From Massilibacillus massiliensis (GTDB taxonomy: Bacteria > Bacillota > Negativicutes > FLKF01): a stretch of DNA of 64,000 nucleotides. The notes under the pieces were generated by a model, which saw only the letters and a program-made list of their open reading frames with translations, was not told the DNA's origin and ran no database searches. The stretch is taken from positions 1,507,534 to 1,571,533 of the forward strand of contig NZ_LT575483.1 of NCBI RefSeq assembly GCF_900086705.1, in the 5' to 3' direction. The translations under genes and the position numbers were made by a program. Shown here one piece after another: positions 1,670-63,434 of this stretch (position 1 is its first letter; every line of letters starts with the position of its first letter).

Positions 1670-2953
1670 TTAAAAATATCCAATCATACGCAACCAATGA
1701 TCATCATCATTCATTACATATTCTACACCGACAAAATCATGCAGATTATATCGAATTGCAAATTCATTCAATTGGGTTTTCGGTGTATGTTCAAATCTAA
1801 GAATCCACTTATTTGCAACTTTTTGCTTTGCCCACAAGATGGATGCCTTTTGATCCATATCATATTTAAAACCTAACTGCATTTGCGGTGTTATATCATG
1901 CGCTAATCCCGGAAGAAATATCCATTTTACTTTATGCGGCAAGAAATCAACTTCCGCAAAAATTTCATTTTGTCTAGAAATCATTCTCCCGGCATGAAGT
2001 TTCAACGATGTATTATCTTCCTCTCGACCAACATCTAAATAACCTTCAAATGCAATGCGATATCGATCGGTTTCAGCACGAATTATGATATCGGTATTGT
2101 TTGCGGTCTGCATTTTTATATTCGTTACTACACCGAATTTTTGCAGATTTTTATCCGCATTTAAAACTTTCGTAAGTGCATTTACAAAATAATCCTGATG
2201 CCTTTTCACAAAACTGACTGGTAAACCAATCAATTGATCTGATTGTCTTTGAATATATGGTCTAAAATTTAGCAACAATAAATTAGGAATTGTTTCAGAA
2301 CGCAAGGACAAATTGACATCATGTACGATCGTTCCTTTTGGATACAAGATTAAATGAAGCCTTGTAACATGATCTGCTGTTATATCAAAACTAAAATCAT
2401 ATTCCGGTAAACGTACGGATAAATATTCTGTAAGCGCTATCTTTACTACACTACGTGCCCACTCAACTGCATCAACCGGTAAGCCAATTAAAACATTGTG
2501 CACTACACTTTCAATTTCAGCGATATCGGTTAAAATTAAAGTTTTCACCTCTGGCGAAACTTCATTTACCGCAACCTCTACCTTGACTTCTCGAATCACG
2601 TCAGACCATGGTGAAACTACTACAACGATATTTGCTGCTGTGTTTGGCGTAATTGTCACAGATTTTACAGAATAACCGACTAAAATTCGGTCAAACACTT
2701 CTTGAATTAAGTTCTCATAACTTTCTTTTTTTGTAACAATTTCTTCTACAGGATGTCCAACTAAAACATTATCGCCAATCGTATAGACACTCGCTTGCAT
2801 CCTTTTCCCAATTCTATCCGGGATTGTTACCCCTTGTTCCGTTTCTACCCTTACCTGCAAAGTGTCAATCAGCTCGGGAATCGCGGCCTGCACTGTAGGT
2901 GCTGAACATAAGAACCAGGGAAACAAAGCAAGTGCAAAAATAAAGTTCCGAAT
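1670..2953 (-). CDS. Uncharacterised exported, outer-membrane-like protein with internal repeats; probable AUU start
   Basis: I do not recognise a named family. The first ATG/GTG/TTG-type start available (TTG at 2926) has no ribosome-binding site and cuts a signal peptide in half. Nine codons upstream is an ATT codon with GAGGTG 8 nt before it and a stop just upstream. Starting there gives a complete signal peptide (IRNFIFALALFPWFLCSAP, cleaved near VQAA). The mature part carries at least three copies of a motif like VLIGLPV (VLVGHPV, ILVGYSV, VLIGLPV, QLIGLPV) spaced through roughly residues 60-260. This suggests repeated alpha/beta domains of a POTRA-like size. The C-terminal third alternates polar and hydrophobic residues and ends in aromatic F, as beta-barrels do. 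It sits between bamA and ompH, so a role in outer-membrane assembly is plausible but inferred. Confidence 0.75.
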   Translation of the reverse strand: MRNFIFALALFPWFLCSAPTVQAAIPELIDTLQVRVETEQGVTIPDRIGKRMQASVYTIGDNVLVGHPVEEIVTKKESYENLIQEVFDRILVGYSVKSVTITPNTAANIVVVVSPWSDVIREVKVEVAVNEVSPEVKTLILTDIAEIESVVHNVLIGLPVDAVEWARSVVKIALTEYLSVRLPEYDFSFDITADHVTRLHLILYPKGTIVHDVNLSLRSETIPNLLLLNFRPYIQRQSDQLIGLPVSFVKRHQDYFVNALTKVLNADKNLQKFGVVTNIKMQTANNTDIIIRAETDRYRIAFEGYLDVGREEDNTSLKLHAGRMISRQNEIFAEVDFLPHKVKWIFLPGLAHDITPQMQLGFKYDMDQKASILWAKQKVANKWILRFEHTPKTQLNEFAIRYNLHDFVGVEYVMNDDDHWLRMIGYF

Positions 2954-38723: not shown

Positions 38724-38954
38724 TCACAACTGTACACTTCTCACCAGATTTTTTAAACCGACGCTTGACTTTGGCAGTGTCTGTTTCATGTCTCTGCAGC
38801 AAACAACTCCTAAACTGAAATCTGCTGCATACCTATCTGCTTTGAATATAGCATAAATAGGAAATAAATACACTGTGATTTCTTTACAATTATTTTTATA
38901 AAAACAACCCAAAAATGGTGCTACGTAACACTGTTCGGCAGTACGACTTCTCAT
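38724..38954 (-). CDS. Possible small Cys-rich protein coupled to the PAS-PucR gene
   Basis: A 76-aa frame whose ATG overlaps the upstream stop as ATGA, with AGGGAG six to seven bases before it, which is a proper ribosome-binding site. The N-terminal half is hydrophobic and has several cysteines (QCYVAPFLGCFYKNNC), the rest is basic. No family recognised. Coupling and ribosome-binding site argue for it; composition does not clearly. Confidence 0.3.
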   Translation of the reverse strand: MRSRTAEQCYVAPFLGCFYKNNCKEITVYLFPIYAIFKADRYAADFSLGVVCCRDMKQTLPKSSVGLKNLVRSVQL

Positions 38955-40522
38955 TTTCTGCTCCCTTGCCGGCGATAATTTAATCGGTAAAGCTTCAGTG
39001 CCAGCGACAAAGTGAGCCTGACTTCATATTGTTCCAGATTGACATCCAAAATCCCCTCAATCCGACGTTTGCGCACAATTACGGTATTATAATGCAGGTA
39101 CAACTTGTTGGCAACATCCTTCAAATGCACACTCTTTAATATTTCCTCCAGCGTATACAACAACTGACTATCCTTTTCCCGATCATAGGCAATCAGCGGT
39201 CCCAGATAGCGTTCTACAAAATCCGACGAATCCTCATCATGCAAAAGCCGCTCCAGCAGTTGATAAATTCCAATATTCTTAAATTCACTAATAACGGCTT
39301 CCTCTGCCTCACTACAGGCAATGACAAGCGCACTCTGCGCCTGACGATAACTCCGTTTCAGACCTTCTATGTCATTGTAAACTCCGCCGATGCCAATTTT
39401 GATTTTAAAATTGGCATCGTATGCCAAAATACGTTCCCGAAGCCACTCACCGGCCTGCAAAGTCTCCTGAAAATGCTTTGAACGGAAAAACACCCCAATA
39501 TCCCCATGGCAATTGTAAATAAACAACAGCGGATCACTGCTTAAAAGTTCCACAACACTAAAAAATAAATTTTTATTGCGATGCGTCCGCTTTCCCGCCT
39601 CCAAATGCACAATGCAGCAAAAATAATCCTCGCTAAAATTTAATTCCTGAATATTCGAAAGAATAGAATTTTTCGTGAATTCTTCTTCACTGCCCGTAAT
39701 GATCGCCTGAAATAATTCAGTACGCTGTTTAAACAGATACATCAATTCCGTTTTCTTTCGATCCCGTTCCTTGCCGGTTACATCCAGGATCAGACTGGCC
39801 ACCAGTTTTTTCCCATTGAGCTGAACCTCCAGCGGCGTCGATTTGCCCTCAACCCAGTAATCACCGTTCGGTGTGGTTAATTTATAGATAGAATGCTGCA
39901 TTTCTCCGGTATGGATCGCATGTTTTATTTTACGTAAAATCATATCGGCCTGACTCTTGACTAAAAACTCATGCAAGCACCGCCCTTTAATATGAGGAAA
40001 TGCGGTATATTCACTGATAAAATCAATGACGCGGCCATCCTCATTGATAATCAGCCCAACGGTTTTTACCGCTTTGCAAAAATAATGACAATAATCTTTC
40101 AGTAAATCCTGGTATAACTCCTTTTCCTTTTGCTGCGTAATATCTCTTGCCACTGTCAAAAATTCAGTACACCCATTATCGGGATCAGAAATTCTCGTCG
40201 TTTCAACCTGCAGCCACACAAAAATTCCATCCTTTTTTCGCAGCCGGCACTCCACGCGTCGCTTCTCAGGCAAAACACCAGCCTTGGTCGGCCGATAAAG
40301 TTTTTTAACCGCCCGCATATCCTCCTGTTCAAGAAATTCATAGACCGAATGCCCTACAACCTCTTCCACCGCATAGCCCAATATATCCTCTACAGCTGGA
40401 GAAGCAAAACGACAAATACCGCCAAAACGAAAAATAGCGACGATATCATTCATACTCTCAATCAGTTTCTTAAAAAAGTCATCTGCCTTGTACCCATATT
40501 TCCCCTCGTTTATTTCCATCAC
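38951..40522 (-). CDS. PAS domain transcriptional regulator with PucR-type HTH (523 aa)
   Basis: Sensory transcription factor. PAS about residues 15-130 (ESMNDIVAIFRFGGICRFAS; ends LTVARDITQQKEKE), a second PAS-like unit about 140-255 (IINEDGRVIDFISEYTAFPH), a central GGDEF-like/CdaR-type region about 270-420 (IKIGIGGVYNDIEGLKRSYR), and a C-terminal PucR-family HTH (LKDVANKLYLHYNTVIVRKR). This domain set is common in regulators of carbon or purine use. The signal is unknown. It could control the neighbouring chemoreceptor and c-di-GMP genes. Start: ATG/GTG near 40522 with GGAAGG upstream. Confidence 0.85.
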   Translation of the reverse strand: MMEINEGKYGYKADDFFKKLIESMNDIVAIFRFGGICRFASPAVEDILGYAVEEVVGHSVYEFLEQEDMRAVKKLYRPTKAGVLPEKRRVECRLRKKDGIFVWLQVETTRISDPDNGCTEFLTVARDITQQKEKELYQDLLKDYCHYFCKAVKTVGLIINEDGRVIDFISEYTAFPHIKGRCLHEFLVKSQADMILRKIKHAIHTGEMQHSIYKLTTPNGDYWVEGKSTPLEVQLNGKKLVASLILDVTGKERDRKKTELMYLFKQRTELFQAIITGSEEEFTKNSILSNIQELNFSEDYFCCIVHLEAGKRTHRNKNLFFSVVELLSSDPLLFIYNCHGDIGVFFRSKHFQETLQAGEWLRERILAYDANFKIKIGIGGVYNDIEGLKRSYRQAQSALVIACSEAEEAVISEFKNIGIYQLLERLLHDEDSSDFVERYLGPLIAYDREKDSQLLYTLEEILKSVHLKDVANKLYLHYNTVIVRKRRIEGILDVNLEQYEVRLTLSLALKLYRLNYRRQGSRK

Positions 40523-40705
40523 CTTCCAGCTGCATTATTTTGAACCAATCGTTGCACCCTCGTAAAAAATAATCCCCCCCTCTTCCCTATATCCATTTAA
40601 AAGCATGATATGATATAATTTATGTCGAATTGCATGTTTACGTATCATTTATGTAAATACTAGCCGTGACGATCCCTCCGGCATGACTTCCGGCAAAAGC
40701 CATGC

Positions 40706-40761
40706 AAAAAAGAGCATGCCACTCAACGTTTCATCATGAAACGTTGAACTGATACGCTCTT
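40706..40761 (-). terminator. Minus-strand terminator of a short divergent transcript
   Basis: A perfect 10-bp stem (CAACGTTTCA / TGAAACGTTG, 3-nt loop) is extended by an outer 6-bp stem (AAGAGC / GCTCTT) across an internal loop. Six T follow on the minus strand. It lies about 370 nt from the strong minus-strand promoter near 41.1 kb and would end its transcript. Confidence 0.7.
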
Positions 40762-40809
40762 GCTATGTTTACTATGTAAAACTATATCTAACGCCGTCCA
40801 CCTTGTCAT
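40723..40809 (-). CDS. Possible 28-aa small protein in the divergent transcript
   Basis: Frame MTRWTALDIVLHSKHSKSVS and eight more residues, ending inside the terminator hairpin. Possible weak ribosome-binding site GCAGGGATG upstream. Basic and amphipathic. The overlap with the terminator could let translation influence termination. Very tentative. Confidence 0.25.
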   Translation of the reverse strand: MTRWTALDIVLHSKHSKSVSVQRFMMKR

Positions 40810-40953
40810 CTATGCATCCCTGCCACAGAAATAAATGAATATGCAATCAAATATTTCAAAGAATACTTCACGCATTTACGTCTTGAAATGAATCGGATAT
40901 AATTAATGAATATAAGCACATTGCAAGTGAACGATGCTTAACGCCGTACCCGA

Positions 40954-40992
40954 TCATTTACTTCTAAACGTAAATGTACTGCTGCAAGTCAT
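40954..40992 (-). CDS. Possible 12-aa leader peptide in the divergent transcript
   Basis: MTCSSTFTFRSK with AAGGA nine bases upstream of the ATG, about 80 nt after the predicted transcript start. Rich in Ser/Thr. It is the only well-placed ribosome-binding site in the transcript. Tentative. Confidence 0.25.
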   Translation of the reverse strand: MTCSSTFTFRSK

Positions 40993-41080
40993 TATTTTCT
41001 GTCCTTCTGTCGTTTTCGCTTGCATAAATATGCAATTTTCAACTACGATCCCGATGCTTCGTCAATCGTCTATGTTATTT

Positions 41081-41109
41081 ATTATATGACACAAATAACA
41101 TCTCGTCAA
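41081..41109 (-). promoter_or_regulatory. Consensus sigma-A promoter, divergent from the XRE gene
   Basis: TTGACG (41104-41109) and TATAAT (41081-41086) with exactly 17 bp between them on the minus strand. This is the best housekeeping-type promoter in the window. It directs transcription away from the XRE gene. Confidence 0.75.
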
Positions 41110-41131
41110 CACTTATGTTGTTATTTGTGTC
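41088..41131. promoter_or_regulatory. Palindromic operator between divergent promoter and XRE gene
   Basis: 13-bp perfect arms GACACAAATAACA and TGTTATTTGTGTC, separated by 18 bp. One arm lies between the -35 and -10 boxes of the minus-strand promoter, the other just upstream of the -35. A protein bound here would block that promoter. The adjacent XRE-family regulator is the natural candidate, acting also on its own gene. Confidence 0.65.
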
Positions 41132-41176
41132 GTAATTTAAACTTATCTCAATTTTTCATTCAAGGAGCCGAAACTG

Positions 41177-41602
41177 ATGTTAGATTCATCTTTCTCAAAA
41201 CAAGAACTTGGCAGACGCGTTGCAATGATACGCGGTAACCATACGCAAAAAGAACTAGCTTCGGCCATCGGTGTCAGCCGAAGCTACATCAGCAACATTG
41301 AGCAGGGCCTCACTGCACCAAGTCTGGAAATTCTAATCAATATCGCAAAACAGTACCGCAGCTCGCTCGATTGGCTGATTTACGGAGACAGCTGTACGAT
41401 TCTCGTGCCCAAAGTGCGCGGACAACAGGCTGACCCGCCGAACGCTTTACTGTGCCGGGGCACAAAAGCAGCAAAACCGGAACCTGCGTGCACTGAACTT
41501 TCACCGGAGATTATGCAGATTTTCAGAAATCTCATGCCAGATGAGCAGGGATTGGTTATTGAGTTCATAAAATTGTTGTCCTCATACAAAACAAAAAGCT
41601 AA
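41177..41602 (+). CDS. XRE-family helix-turn-helix regulator (141 aa)
   Basis: DNA-binding protein with a classic Cro/C1-type HTH at about residues 11-65 (GRRVAMIRGNHTQKELASAIGVSRSYISNIEQG..., quoted in part as QKELASAIGVSRSYISNIEQ). A C-terminal region of about 70 residues without recognised domain follows (TELSPEIMQIFRNLMPDEQG). AAGGAG lies 9 nt before the ATG. It is one of only two larger genes on the plus strand, and a palindromic operator lies 46 bp upstream. Likely autoregulator and repressor of the divergent short transcript. It may also act on the neighbouring chemoreceptors. Confidence 0.9.
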   Translation: MLDSSFSKQELGRRVAMIRGNHTQKELASAIGVSRSYISNIEQGLTAPSLEILINIAKQYRSSLDWLIYGDSCTILVPKVRGQQADPPNALLCRGTKAAKPEPACTELSPEIMQIFRNLMPDEQGLVIEFIKLLSSYKTKS

Positions 41603-42335
41603 GCAGCTCTGCCCCGATCGGCAAAAACCTGCTCAATTTGAAGTATGTGTCAGTAGACCTTCCACGTCGTTCTGCTTGACACCTGCTTTTTTGTTATGCT
41701 CAGATCCTTGGGGAAGGACAGGCATCATGCTTATGGCAAAAAGTCACCCAAGAAACCTTCCCCGCGTGACTATACCCTTTCCCAATACTATTGCCCAACC
41801 ATTTTTCGCTACAATCAGCGCTGGAAGTGTCGGCTGCATCCCGATTGTATCTCAAAAAGAGCAGCGGATATCATCACATCGAAACCAAGTCACCATAAGA
41901 TCGCCTATATCATTCTATAATGCTGTTATTAAAAGTCCTACCTTATTACAACAAATAATATCATACATTTTGTCAAACTGCATTATTACCCAATGACAAA
42001 TATTTGTTATATAGGCATCTCTAAAATGTAGCACTACAACATAGCCCCTGACCGCAAGCACGCGGACGGCAAATCAGTTCTGCCATCCCGCTCATCTACA
42101 AGCTGCACCCATCGGCACAAATCGTAAAGAACGCACTGCAGTTCTTTTATGTTAATCGCTCCGCCTTCTCCATTCTCATTACTTACTAATTTGTCTAAAA
42201 ATTTTATCCCAAAAGAAAATTTGTTAACTTATTTATTGATTGTTATTTTTATTATTACAATTGTAACTTTCCACGCGTCATTCTTATTTACCAGGGTATG
42301 ATGACACACTAGTAGCCTTGCAAATATACACAGTA
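41603..42335. other. Long intergenic region between XRE and chemoreceptor 2
   Basis: Mostly no gene. Near the XRE stop, GTGTCA / TGACAC with a long loop and a T6 run about 5 nt later is a weak terminator candidate (41647-41691). An AT-rich stretch with a TTACAATTGTAA palindrome lies at about 42255-42266. One doubtful frame is listed separately. Confidence 0.4.
41696..41920 (+). pseudogene. Doubtful 74-aa frame, possible gene remnant
   Basis: The frame encodes KKPSPRDYTLSQYYCPTIF and RWKCRLHPDCISKRAADIIT, with spaced Cys and His that resemble a zinc-binding or transposase-type fragment. There is no ribosome-binding site and no partner motif nearby. It may be the remains of a mobile element or chance. 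Confidence 0.2.
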
Positions 42336-42384
42336 ATATTGTTATCTGGTAACAATATTTTTAACTAAGCAGGTGTGCTATAAT
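42336..42384 (+). promoter_or_regulatory. Promoter and palindromic box of chemoreceptor 2
   Basis: ATTGTTATCTGGTAACAAT (42338-42356; core TTGTTA-N5-TAACAA) lies 22 bp upstream of TATAAT (42379-42384). There is no -35 hexamer at the usual place, which the box partly covers. The same box and spacing occur before chemoreceptors 3 and 4. The centre falls near -43 to -44, a position typical for an activator touching RNA polymerase. Confidence 0.7.
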
Positions 42385-42423
42385 TTTAACAGAGAATTTT
42401 CTTCTGTAGTATAGTTTTAAAAT

Positions 42424-42555
42424 ATGGAGCAAATCATGCAGCCTGTGCAAATAGCTAAAAAATGCTCGAATTGCACTGCCGCCCTACCGGACTTCATCAC
42501 GTTTCATACTATAGTCCAGAAGAAAATCCATGCACAATTACGTAGAAAAGGATAG
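42424..42555 (+). CDS. Possible 43-aa leader peptide of chemoreceptor 2
   Basis: Frame MEQIMQPVQIAKKCSNCTAA and 23 more residues, running from about 30 nt after the predicted transcript start to just inside the ribosome-binding site of the chemoreceptor gene (stop 6 nt before its ATG). Contains a CSNC motif, potentially metal- or redox-sensitive. No clear ribosome-binding site of its own. Tentative. Confidence 0.3.
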   Translation: MEQIMQPVQIAKKCSNCTAALPDFITFHTIVQKKIHAQLRRKG

Positions 42556-42561
42556 GTTAAT

Positions 42562-62945: not shown

Positions 62946-63434
62946 GCGTTGTTTCCTTTCCGTCCCGTTAGTTTTGACCATCCTTATCCCGATTGGTTAC
63001 GGCAGATGTTGTCTCATTTACAGTGGGGACTCTACTTCAACTGATTGATTGTTCAGCCCTTTGCTCCATTTCCATTACAGAAATTTCTTCACTACTACGG
63101 CTTATGCTGACTTCTCACAGTTTGTTGTTACTCGGTTAATGGAACCGCTGTGAGATCTCCCCGATTAAGGTGCGAACTCTTTCCCTTCATATATCCGCCG
63201 CATTTACTTCGTTCCTACAAATGTGATAGTAATTAGACTTCGCTTTGTCTTGCAAGCTTATCTCTCGGAACCCAGCCTTCTATGCGATTTCTGTCCGTCG
63301 GACCAAAGGTTTGCCTACAGCTTCCTTCAGATTCAACCTCACGATTGTCACCCTTGCTGTTCAGCTATACACTTCCCACTATCCGGGCGTATTAGGGACT
63401 TTCACCCTCAAGAGTTCGCCCATGTCGGGCGAAC

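Follow-up and report, generated by a model that had tools for sequence, protein, structure and literature searches.

Face-to-face promoters at an XRE-type regulator gene of Massilibacillus massiliensis: a possible convergent switch with relatives across the class

The stretch of 64,000 nucleotides analysed here, referred to as the window, contains a gene for a short helix-turn-helix regulator, xre, next to a transcription unit that carries hardly any coding sequence (Table 1). The XRE protein reaches 58.7 bits against the HTH_3 domain, for which the Pfam gathering score is 23, and stays below the cut-offs of the NCBIfam subfamilies RstR (37 of 80) and DicA (its second best match, 31.8 of 101). 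With regard to phage context, the three large flanking genes that were searched proved to be PAS-PucR, GGDEF-EAL and MCP genes; no phage DNA matched positions 40500-41700, and XRE matches phage records weakly. Upstream of the PAS-PucR gene, at 40603-40654 on the minus strand, reside two tandem 23-bp repeats of the ACATAAAT..CATGC type with 29 bp spacing, which are possibly this gene's own operator. On the other side of the locus, nearly 1 kb between xre and the chemotaxis receptor gene (41603-42561) is devoid of any recognisable gene. Five extra frames around the locus, two of which lie in this interval, gave no Pfam match. Elsewhere in the window, a group II intron match (D1-D4-3, 136 bits) is found at 63169-63348 on the minus strand. 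It is the only family returned by an Rfam scan of the window at gathering score, and the window contains no tRNA genes.

Table 1 Features predicted at the xre locus, with positions counted from the first letter of the window
Feature	Position	Strand	Basis or remarks
Gene for a PAS-PucR type regulator, beyond the terminator and in the place taken by the first P1-operon gene in relatives	38951..40522	-	PAS, HTH_30, GGDEF_2
Predicted P1 transcript, ~369 nt, without ordinary gene	40706..41074	-	start inferred from P1, end from terminator
Intrinsic terminator hairpin, then U6	40710..40761	-	folding, z -7.1
28-aa frame, stop codon within the terminator stem; possible leader peptide	40723..40809	-	ORF list
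21-aa frame (MREVFFEIFDCIFIYFCGRDA), start overlaps the end of the 29-aa frame	40810..40875	-	ORF list
29-aa frame, start overlaps the stop of the 12-aa frame (ATGA)	40868..40957	-	ORF list
Structured core of the P1 RNA, 104 nt, long interrupted stem	40873..40976	-	-28 kcal/mol, z -3.9; inverted repeat
P2 promoter, TTTACG (40875-40880), N17, TATAAT (40898-40903)	40875..40903	+	10/12; predicted xre promoter
Predicted xre 5' leader from P2, ~267 nt	40910..41176	+	from the positions of P1, P2 and the xre start
12-aa frame, AAGGA upstream	40954..40992	-	ORF list
Third half site ATGTTATTT, partial, at the P1 start	41072..41080	.	inverted-repeat search
P1 promoter, TTGACG (41109-41104), spacer 17 nt, TATAAT (41086-41081)	41081..41109	-	11/12 consensus positions
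Operator arm GACACAAATAACA, inside the P1 spacer between the hexamers	41088..41100	.	inverted-repeat search and comparison with relatives
Second operator arm TGTTATTTGTGTC, upstream of the P1 -35	41119..41131	.	inverted-repeat search
xre, 141-aa helix-turn-helix regulator (HTH_3)	41177..41602	+	translation and Pfam

A first-pass annotation of this DNA had pointed out a near-consensus promoter, TTGACG-N17-TATAAT, on the minus strand and a perfect 13-bp palindrome at it. Both were borne out. The promoter, here named P1, has its -35 hexamer 68 nt from the xre start, and the palindrome arm within the P1 spacer forms a perfect inverted repeat with its partner farther upstream, past the -35, 18 nt lying between the two. 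The dyad within the P1 spacer itself is imperfect, its longest exact arms being 3. Chance expectation was assessed with 60 first-order Markov sequences of 64 kb each. Perfect inverted repeats of at least 13 bp with a gap of at most 60 occur six times in the window (mean of 0.07 in the controls), and promoters matching at least 11 of the 12 consensus positions occur five times (mean of 2.1). A lone 11/12 promoter is not unusual by chance, and promoter-like sites in the surrounding 3 kb are at chance level (7 against 7.8 expected). The combination of a palindrome of at least 13 bp with an overlapping promoter of at least 11/12 was encountered in none of the 60 controls.

The RNA predicted to start at P1 ends at a strong terminator. 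Where a double-stem terminator about 370 nt downstream had been proposed, the strength and the distance (369 nt) hold true, and the two stems have to be corrected to a single long interrupted hairpin of 8 + 3 + 12 pairs (-26.3 kcal/mol, a value matched by none of 200 shuffles; a separate terminator scan gave -23.4 kcal/mol with U6). It also proved correct that no ordinary gene lies in between and that frames of 12 and 28 aa are present. They belong to a chain of frames of 12, 29, 21 and 28 aa with overlapping or touching stop and start codons. An additional 23-aa frame, along with those of 29 and 21 aa, links the 12- and the 28-aa frames. The intergenic DNA has no copy in its own genome beyond itself and no relatives among 60 related genomes or in phages. 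A comparison with 380 genomes of the class yielded 14 matches, namely the own genome and 13 matches of about 20-46 bp. The exact palindrome was not found in viral contigs.

A second promoter, P2, which was absent from the first-pass annotation, resides inside the P1 transcript, faces P1 and points at xre, with about 180 bp between the -10 boxes of the two promoters. It is the sole 10/12 promoter found upstream of xre; the interval from P2 to the xre start holds one other site of at least 9/12, with a spacer of 15 nt. As P2 is the only promoter of this quality, the P1 RNA would run antisense over part of the xre leader: should the xre mRNA come from P2, ~165 nt at the 5' end of its leader are complementary to the P1 RNA. 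In the direction of P2, a weak terminator-like hairpin (-8.8 kcal/mol) is located at about 40935-40991.

Since the 380 genomes of the class yielded nothing related to the intergenic DNA, relatives were sought via the XRE protein. Its relatives in genome contigs, viral contigs, plasmids and phages are distant and match only locally, and the family to which the window belongs is represented among the genomes searched by its own genome alone. We compared 36 XRE loci, the window included, chosen by protein similarity alone. A divergent promoter of at least 10/12 within 350 bp upstream of the gene is present in 22 of them, again counting the window. In the window and in loci L004, L006 and L057 the P1 spacer ends with TGTCA beside the -10 hexamer (TGTCA-TATAAT), and the recognition helices of the four proteins are alike (SRSYISNIE in the window, SRSYVNNIE in L004, SRGYVNNIE in L006 and L057). 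Loci L005, L007 and L059, with the helix SKSYINNVE or SKSYVNNVE, carry the dyad TACACTTATAAGTGTA instead. Because the dyad in the P1 spacer thus varies with the recognition helix of XRE, we read the palindrome as a predicted XRE operator. In the own genome, the operator half site with up to two mismatches occurs 95+68 times compared to 102+96 times for the reversed pattern, which is control level, so that no XRE regulon was found. As a separate observation, the same genome contains a second XRE gene (L154, C6:1053800-1057500) that faces away from a neighbour read as a lysine/ornithine/arginine decarboxylase, and the same pair of an XRE and a decarboxylase-like gene occurs in another family (L061).

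Comparison of the relatives also brought to light an element that is conserved in five of the loci (L004, L005, L007, L057 and L059) within the P1 leader. A model built from these five, R1, found further copies. The element had been taken for the leader RNA of an operon driven by P1, a reading that was dropped because its conserved 'box', when read in reverse complement, is a TTTACG-N17/18-TATAAT promoter on the opposite strand that points back at XRE, i.e. P2. A hairpin on the P1 strand was likewise discarded, the wobble pairs fitting the P2 strand better (15 T-G versus 6 A-C; both kinds were scored alike in the search and some of the A-C pairs lie within over-extended arms). Models R2 and R3 were therefore rebuilt on the P2 strand. 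There, a hairpin follows downstream of P2, with the loop UUGCUUGGCGGC or one close to it in most members; searching for the exact loop motif with one mismatch was too noisy to be of use. With E values of up to 0.001, R3 matches 37 places in 17 of the 380 genomes of the class. The P2 pattern gave no match in viral contigs, and neither did one of the elements when searched against plasmids.

All nine base pairs of the hairpin change on both sides in an alignment of 29 copies that was made with the model and is biased towards the structure supplied; these copies comprise every match with E <= 0.1 in 33 loci. The covariation score amounts to 0.420. Shuffles gave 0.121, none of 500 reaching the observed value, and slid partners gave no more than 0.067. 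RNAalifold on a MAFFT alignment of 21 members, from which copies lacking a clear hairpin around the loop motif had been excluded (both copies of L133, the second of L140, and L142, L148 and L115), did not find covariation, as the alignment had put two groups out of register. No Rfam family is located at the element (Rfam 15; 11 and 10 relative loci). As the hairpin covaries in nine out of nine pairs and has no counterpart in Rfam 15, the promoter-plus-hairpin element upstream of XRE genes is a candidate for a new RNA family that can be tested by itself. Examples are L143:1308-1414 (-), L005:1065-1200 (+) and L057:2071-2203 (-), plus 26 more (alignment A5). Downstream of the hairpin, L137:1303-1434 and 2220-2350 (-) and L143:1308-1414 (-) show the sequence TCACCTC(G)CTTT, which is present in many copies and constitutes an anti-Shine-Dalgarno stretch on the P2 strand, with GAGGTGA on the other strand. 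In one genome, a stretch of about 3 kb (L133:1080-3488) holds the P2 element three times, along with five XRE-like genes.

The arrangement of genes and promoters around the element recurs as well. An XRE gene follows in the direction of P2 within 1.1 kb in 25 of the 30 R3 loci examined, three of which have no P2 by pattern and were scored as misses. A P1 of at least 10/12 that faces P2 is present in 22 of the 27 loci with P2, against 1.4 expected from Markov controls, and in these 22 it sits between P2 and XRE. Among the 25 loci that have XRE, 22 show the P1 -35 at a distance of -20 to 80 nt from the start of this gene, and 12 show it within 20 nt on either side. Where the -35 precedes the start by 8-14 nt, there is little room for another promoter, so XRE would have to be read from P2 through P1. 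Dyads with arms of at least 5 occur in the P1 spacer of 11 of the 22 loci, compared to 6% in controls. The XRE proteins concerned belong to visibly different subfamilies. In the direction of P1, genes are present in nearly all loci, the first mostly starting 10-450 nt beyond P2. As read from the translations, they encode arginine deiminase, triosephosphate-isomerase-like and RraA-like proteins, parts of sugar aldolases and transporters, so that P1 in relatives usually appears to run toward a nutrient-use gene. Terminator-like sites are found in 7 of 27 relative loci and are all weak, none being below -12 kcal/mol; in the absence of a strong terminator P1 looks like an operon promoter there. 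In the literature searched by terms, mostly other than subscription papers and including PMC8632094 (with its ldh2, gltD, ilvD and potE motifs), PMC11109978 and PMC6429828, no account of the cassette or the hairpin was found.

How closely does the window resemble these loci? Its layout is that of the cassette: XRE, P1 with an operator arm in the spacer, and P2 facing P1. Six of the 36 XRE loci, the window among these, reach at least 15 with a P2 weight matrix from which those loci had been left out. The window's P2 scores 16.2 and is the best site of the 64 kb (next best 8.0); cassette members scored by leave-one-out, without their own group, all lie above this value, with at least 24.4. R1 lists four places in the 64 kb, the window's P2 not being one of them, and gives it 10.6 bits when the region is searched alone; it comes third with R2 (13.5 bits, E 0.92) and first with R3 (17.6 bits, E 0.11), and all of these scores stem from the promoter part. 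The conserved hairpin was not detected in the window's P2 RNA (-3.5 bits at 40914-40939, where a 6-bp stem with a z of -0.67 is no better than shuffles). The assignment of the window's P2 as a cassette P2 is thus suggestive only. Given the missing hairpin, the window is not filed in the hairpin family; it would work like the cassette. A canonical copy of the R models was not found in the own genome, where a single R2 match lies elsewhere (E 1.5). As an observation on the side, the -35 region of the window's P2 has an inverted copy 62 nt away (40956-40976 versus 40873-40893) without an adjoining -10. Pairing of the two makes up the long stem of the P1 RNA, and the inverted copy is the second R3 match in the window (7.5 bits).

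The window differs from its relatives at the far end of the P1 transcript. Its strong terminator is unique, nothing comparable being found in the 27 relative loci, and P1 would accordingly make a bounded RNA in the window, while it looks like the promoter of an operon in the relatives. The PAS-PucR gene starts about 356 nt beyond P2, behind this terminator and within the range in which the first genes of the relatives begin.

These features are best explained by a convergent promoter switch around the XRE repressor, a reading for which we see about even chances. P2 would make the xre mRNA with its long leader, and P1 would fire in the opposite direction, through P2. XRE would bind the TGTCA-type operator arms in and beside P1 and shut this promoter off, so that P2 and xre stay on. 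At low levels of XRE, or once it is inactivated, P1 would fire, and polymerases from P1 together with the antisense RNA would cross P2 and the first part of the leader and hold xre down, the P1 RNA ending at the strong terminator. The promoters, the arms, the terminator, the complementarity of the two RNAs and the layout of XRE, P1 and P2 in relatives are features of the DNA itself. That XRE is the binding protein, that P2 serves as the xre promoter here and that P1 lowers xre expression are steps we infer from them. Most likely, P1 and P2 would antagonise each other through the traffic of polymerases and the pairing of antisense RNA. Tight control and a phage-like switch had already been suggested for this locus; the co-variation of dyad and helix and the promoters standing face to face as in P2-like phages now argue for both, with the neighbouring XRE as the controlling protein. 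Points against the switch are the imperfect dyad in the P1 spacer, the low scores of the window's P2 relative to cassette members, the undetected hairpin and the weak terminator-like hairpin in the direction of P2.

We consider it possible, albeit on somewhat less than even terms, that the window is a stripped-down member of a class-wide cassette that has gone undescribed. As part of this tentative reading, the cassette would consist of an XRE of any subfamily, a P1 with an operator in its spacer and a P2 that reads through P1 and whose RNA starts with a conserved structured part; elsewhere it would control nutrient-use genes. In the window, the output of P1 would be reduced to a self-terminated antisense RNA, and the switch would control only itself and, by readthrough, PAS-PucR as a second regulator.

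The main rival explanation takes the P1 RNA as an attenuated 5' leader of PAS-PucR with a conditional terminator, whose hairpin would be melted by translation of the 28-aa frame. Readthrough into PAS-PucR is also the case that the first-pass annotation had named as speaking against its own reading. This frame is preceded by AGGG at a distance of 8 nt and, as it ends inside the terminator stem, it would suit readthrough controlled by translation. The location of PAS-PucR relative to P2 speaks in the same direction, and so does the interval between terminator and PAS-PucR, in which promoter-like sites amount to no more than one of 9/12, its spacer being 19 nt, and five of 8/12. On the other hand, the terminator (-23 to -26 kcal/mol, U6) has no counterpart in the relative loci, and the tandem repeats upstream of PAS-PucR may mark a separate, activated promoter of that gene. 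We regard attenuation as unlikely on balance, though worth keeping in mind, all the more since it may coexist with the switch.

Much less probable is that the P1 RNA, made when XRE lets go, acts in trans as a small RNA on other mRNAs. Its stand-alone nature, its own strong terminator and the folding of its 104-nt core would fit such a role. However, the core coincides with the P2 promoter region, the RNA belongs to no family of the Rfam scan, and with a single copy in the genome and no relative among the genomes of the class a conserved seed cannot be shown. To a similarly low degree we consider that the locus is a remnant in which P1 once drove a catabolic operon, since lost, and now makes a short RNA without use. 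Genes follow P1 in nearly all resembling loci, with none ahead of the terminator in the window, whose P2 RNA also lacks the hairpin. Yet the P1 hexamers, the operator arms and the terminator are all intact, which argues against a remnant, as a decaying promoter would not keep them for long. Finally, it is highly improbable that the transcript serves as messenger for the chained frames, the 21-aa product of which is hydrophobic-rich as in small membrane toxins: a chain of four frames of at least 10 aa arises in 10 of 2000 dinucleotide shuffles, a measure picked after the sequence had been seen, and ribosome-binding sites precede the 12- and 28-aa frames, but those of the 29- and 21-aa frames are poor, and none of the 28-, 29- and 21-aa frames has a PHROGs match. 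As to a type I toxin-antitoxin pair, defined by an antisense RNA that blocks translation of a small hydrophobic toxin, what is present is the hydrophobic 21-aa frame. Apart from this chain, nothing speaks positively for a stand-alone trans-acting RNA or for a small protein; a small RNA or a small protein had been among the suggestions of the first-pass annotation.

Should the convergent switch prove true, a face-to-face arrangement of the phage type would be an ordinary host circuit for the timing of nutrient use that employs many XRE subfamilies, with antisense overlap and a conserved RNA built into it. The window would then be a natural variant without the hairpin and could reveal where in the circuit the hairpin has its role.

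Two published systems are the closest pairs of an RNA with an XRE protein, and neither has this layout. In Bartonella, a non-coding RNA of ~200 nt (Brt) beside a small XRE gene (trp) is thought to form one circuit with it; according to the accessible text, Brt shares its strand with trp, stops 10-18 nt ahead of that gene and exists in nine related copies (PMC5387305). In M. massiliensis, the RNA is on the opposite strand, has a single copy and no Rfam match. In the Qin prophage, the short XRE-type repressor DicA shuts off a promoter whose transcript comprises a small RNA, DicF, and a small protein, DicB (PMC10448788, accessible parts). DicA is also the runner-up among the NCBIfam matches of the window's XRE, albeit far below the cut-off, and its system differs by a divergent, lambda-like layout with the Cro-like DicC and by the processing of DicF from a long operon.

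The repressor of the scbA-scbR system of Streptomyces is of the TetR type. As far as the accessible text goes, its convergent transcripts were modelled as bistable through collision and antisense pairing; this is a model study, and it concerns two protein genes that overlap by 53 bp (PMC3134472). The P2-like phages come nearest with regard to promoter arrangement. In the pR-pL pair of phage 186, as presented in the accessible parts of PMC7498355, operators of the repressor lie over one of two face-to-face promoters, the other makes the repressor, and pR interferes with pL. The same arrangement is found here in the form of sequence motifs, with predicted repressor binding. In P2-like phages, 40-60 bp separate the two promoters (PMC7498355, same parts), clearly less than the distance between the two -10 boxes of the window. 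Furthermore, the repressor is here of the XRE/HTH_3 type and resides among chromosomal chemotaxis and signalling genes, an Apl/Cox-like gene was not noticed, and the P1 RNA comes to its terminator without having covered a gene. The cassette found with R1-R3 in other families shares with the window the XRE gene, a P1 with an operator in its spacer that points away from XRE and, with a sequence match that is suggestive only, a P2 that faces P1 and points at XRE; it differs in that its P2 RNA carries the hairpin with the UUGCUUGGCGGC loop and in that its P1 leads to a nutrient-use gene instead of ending at a strong terminator.
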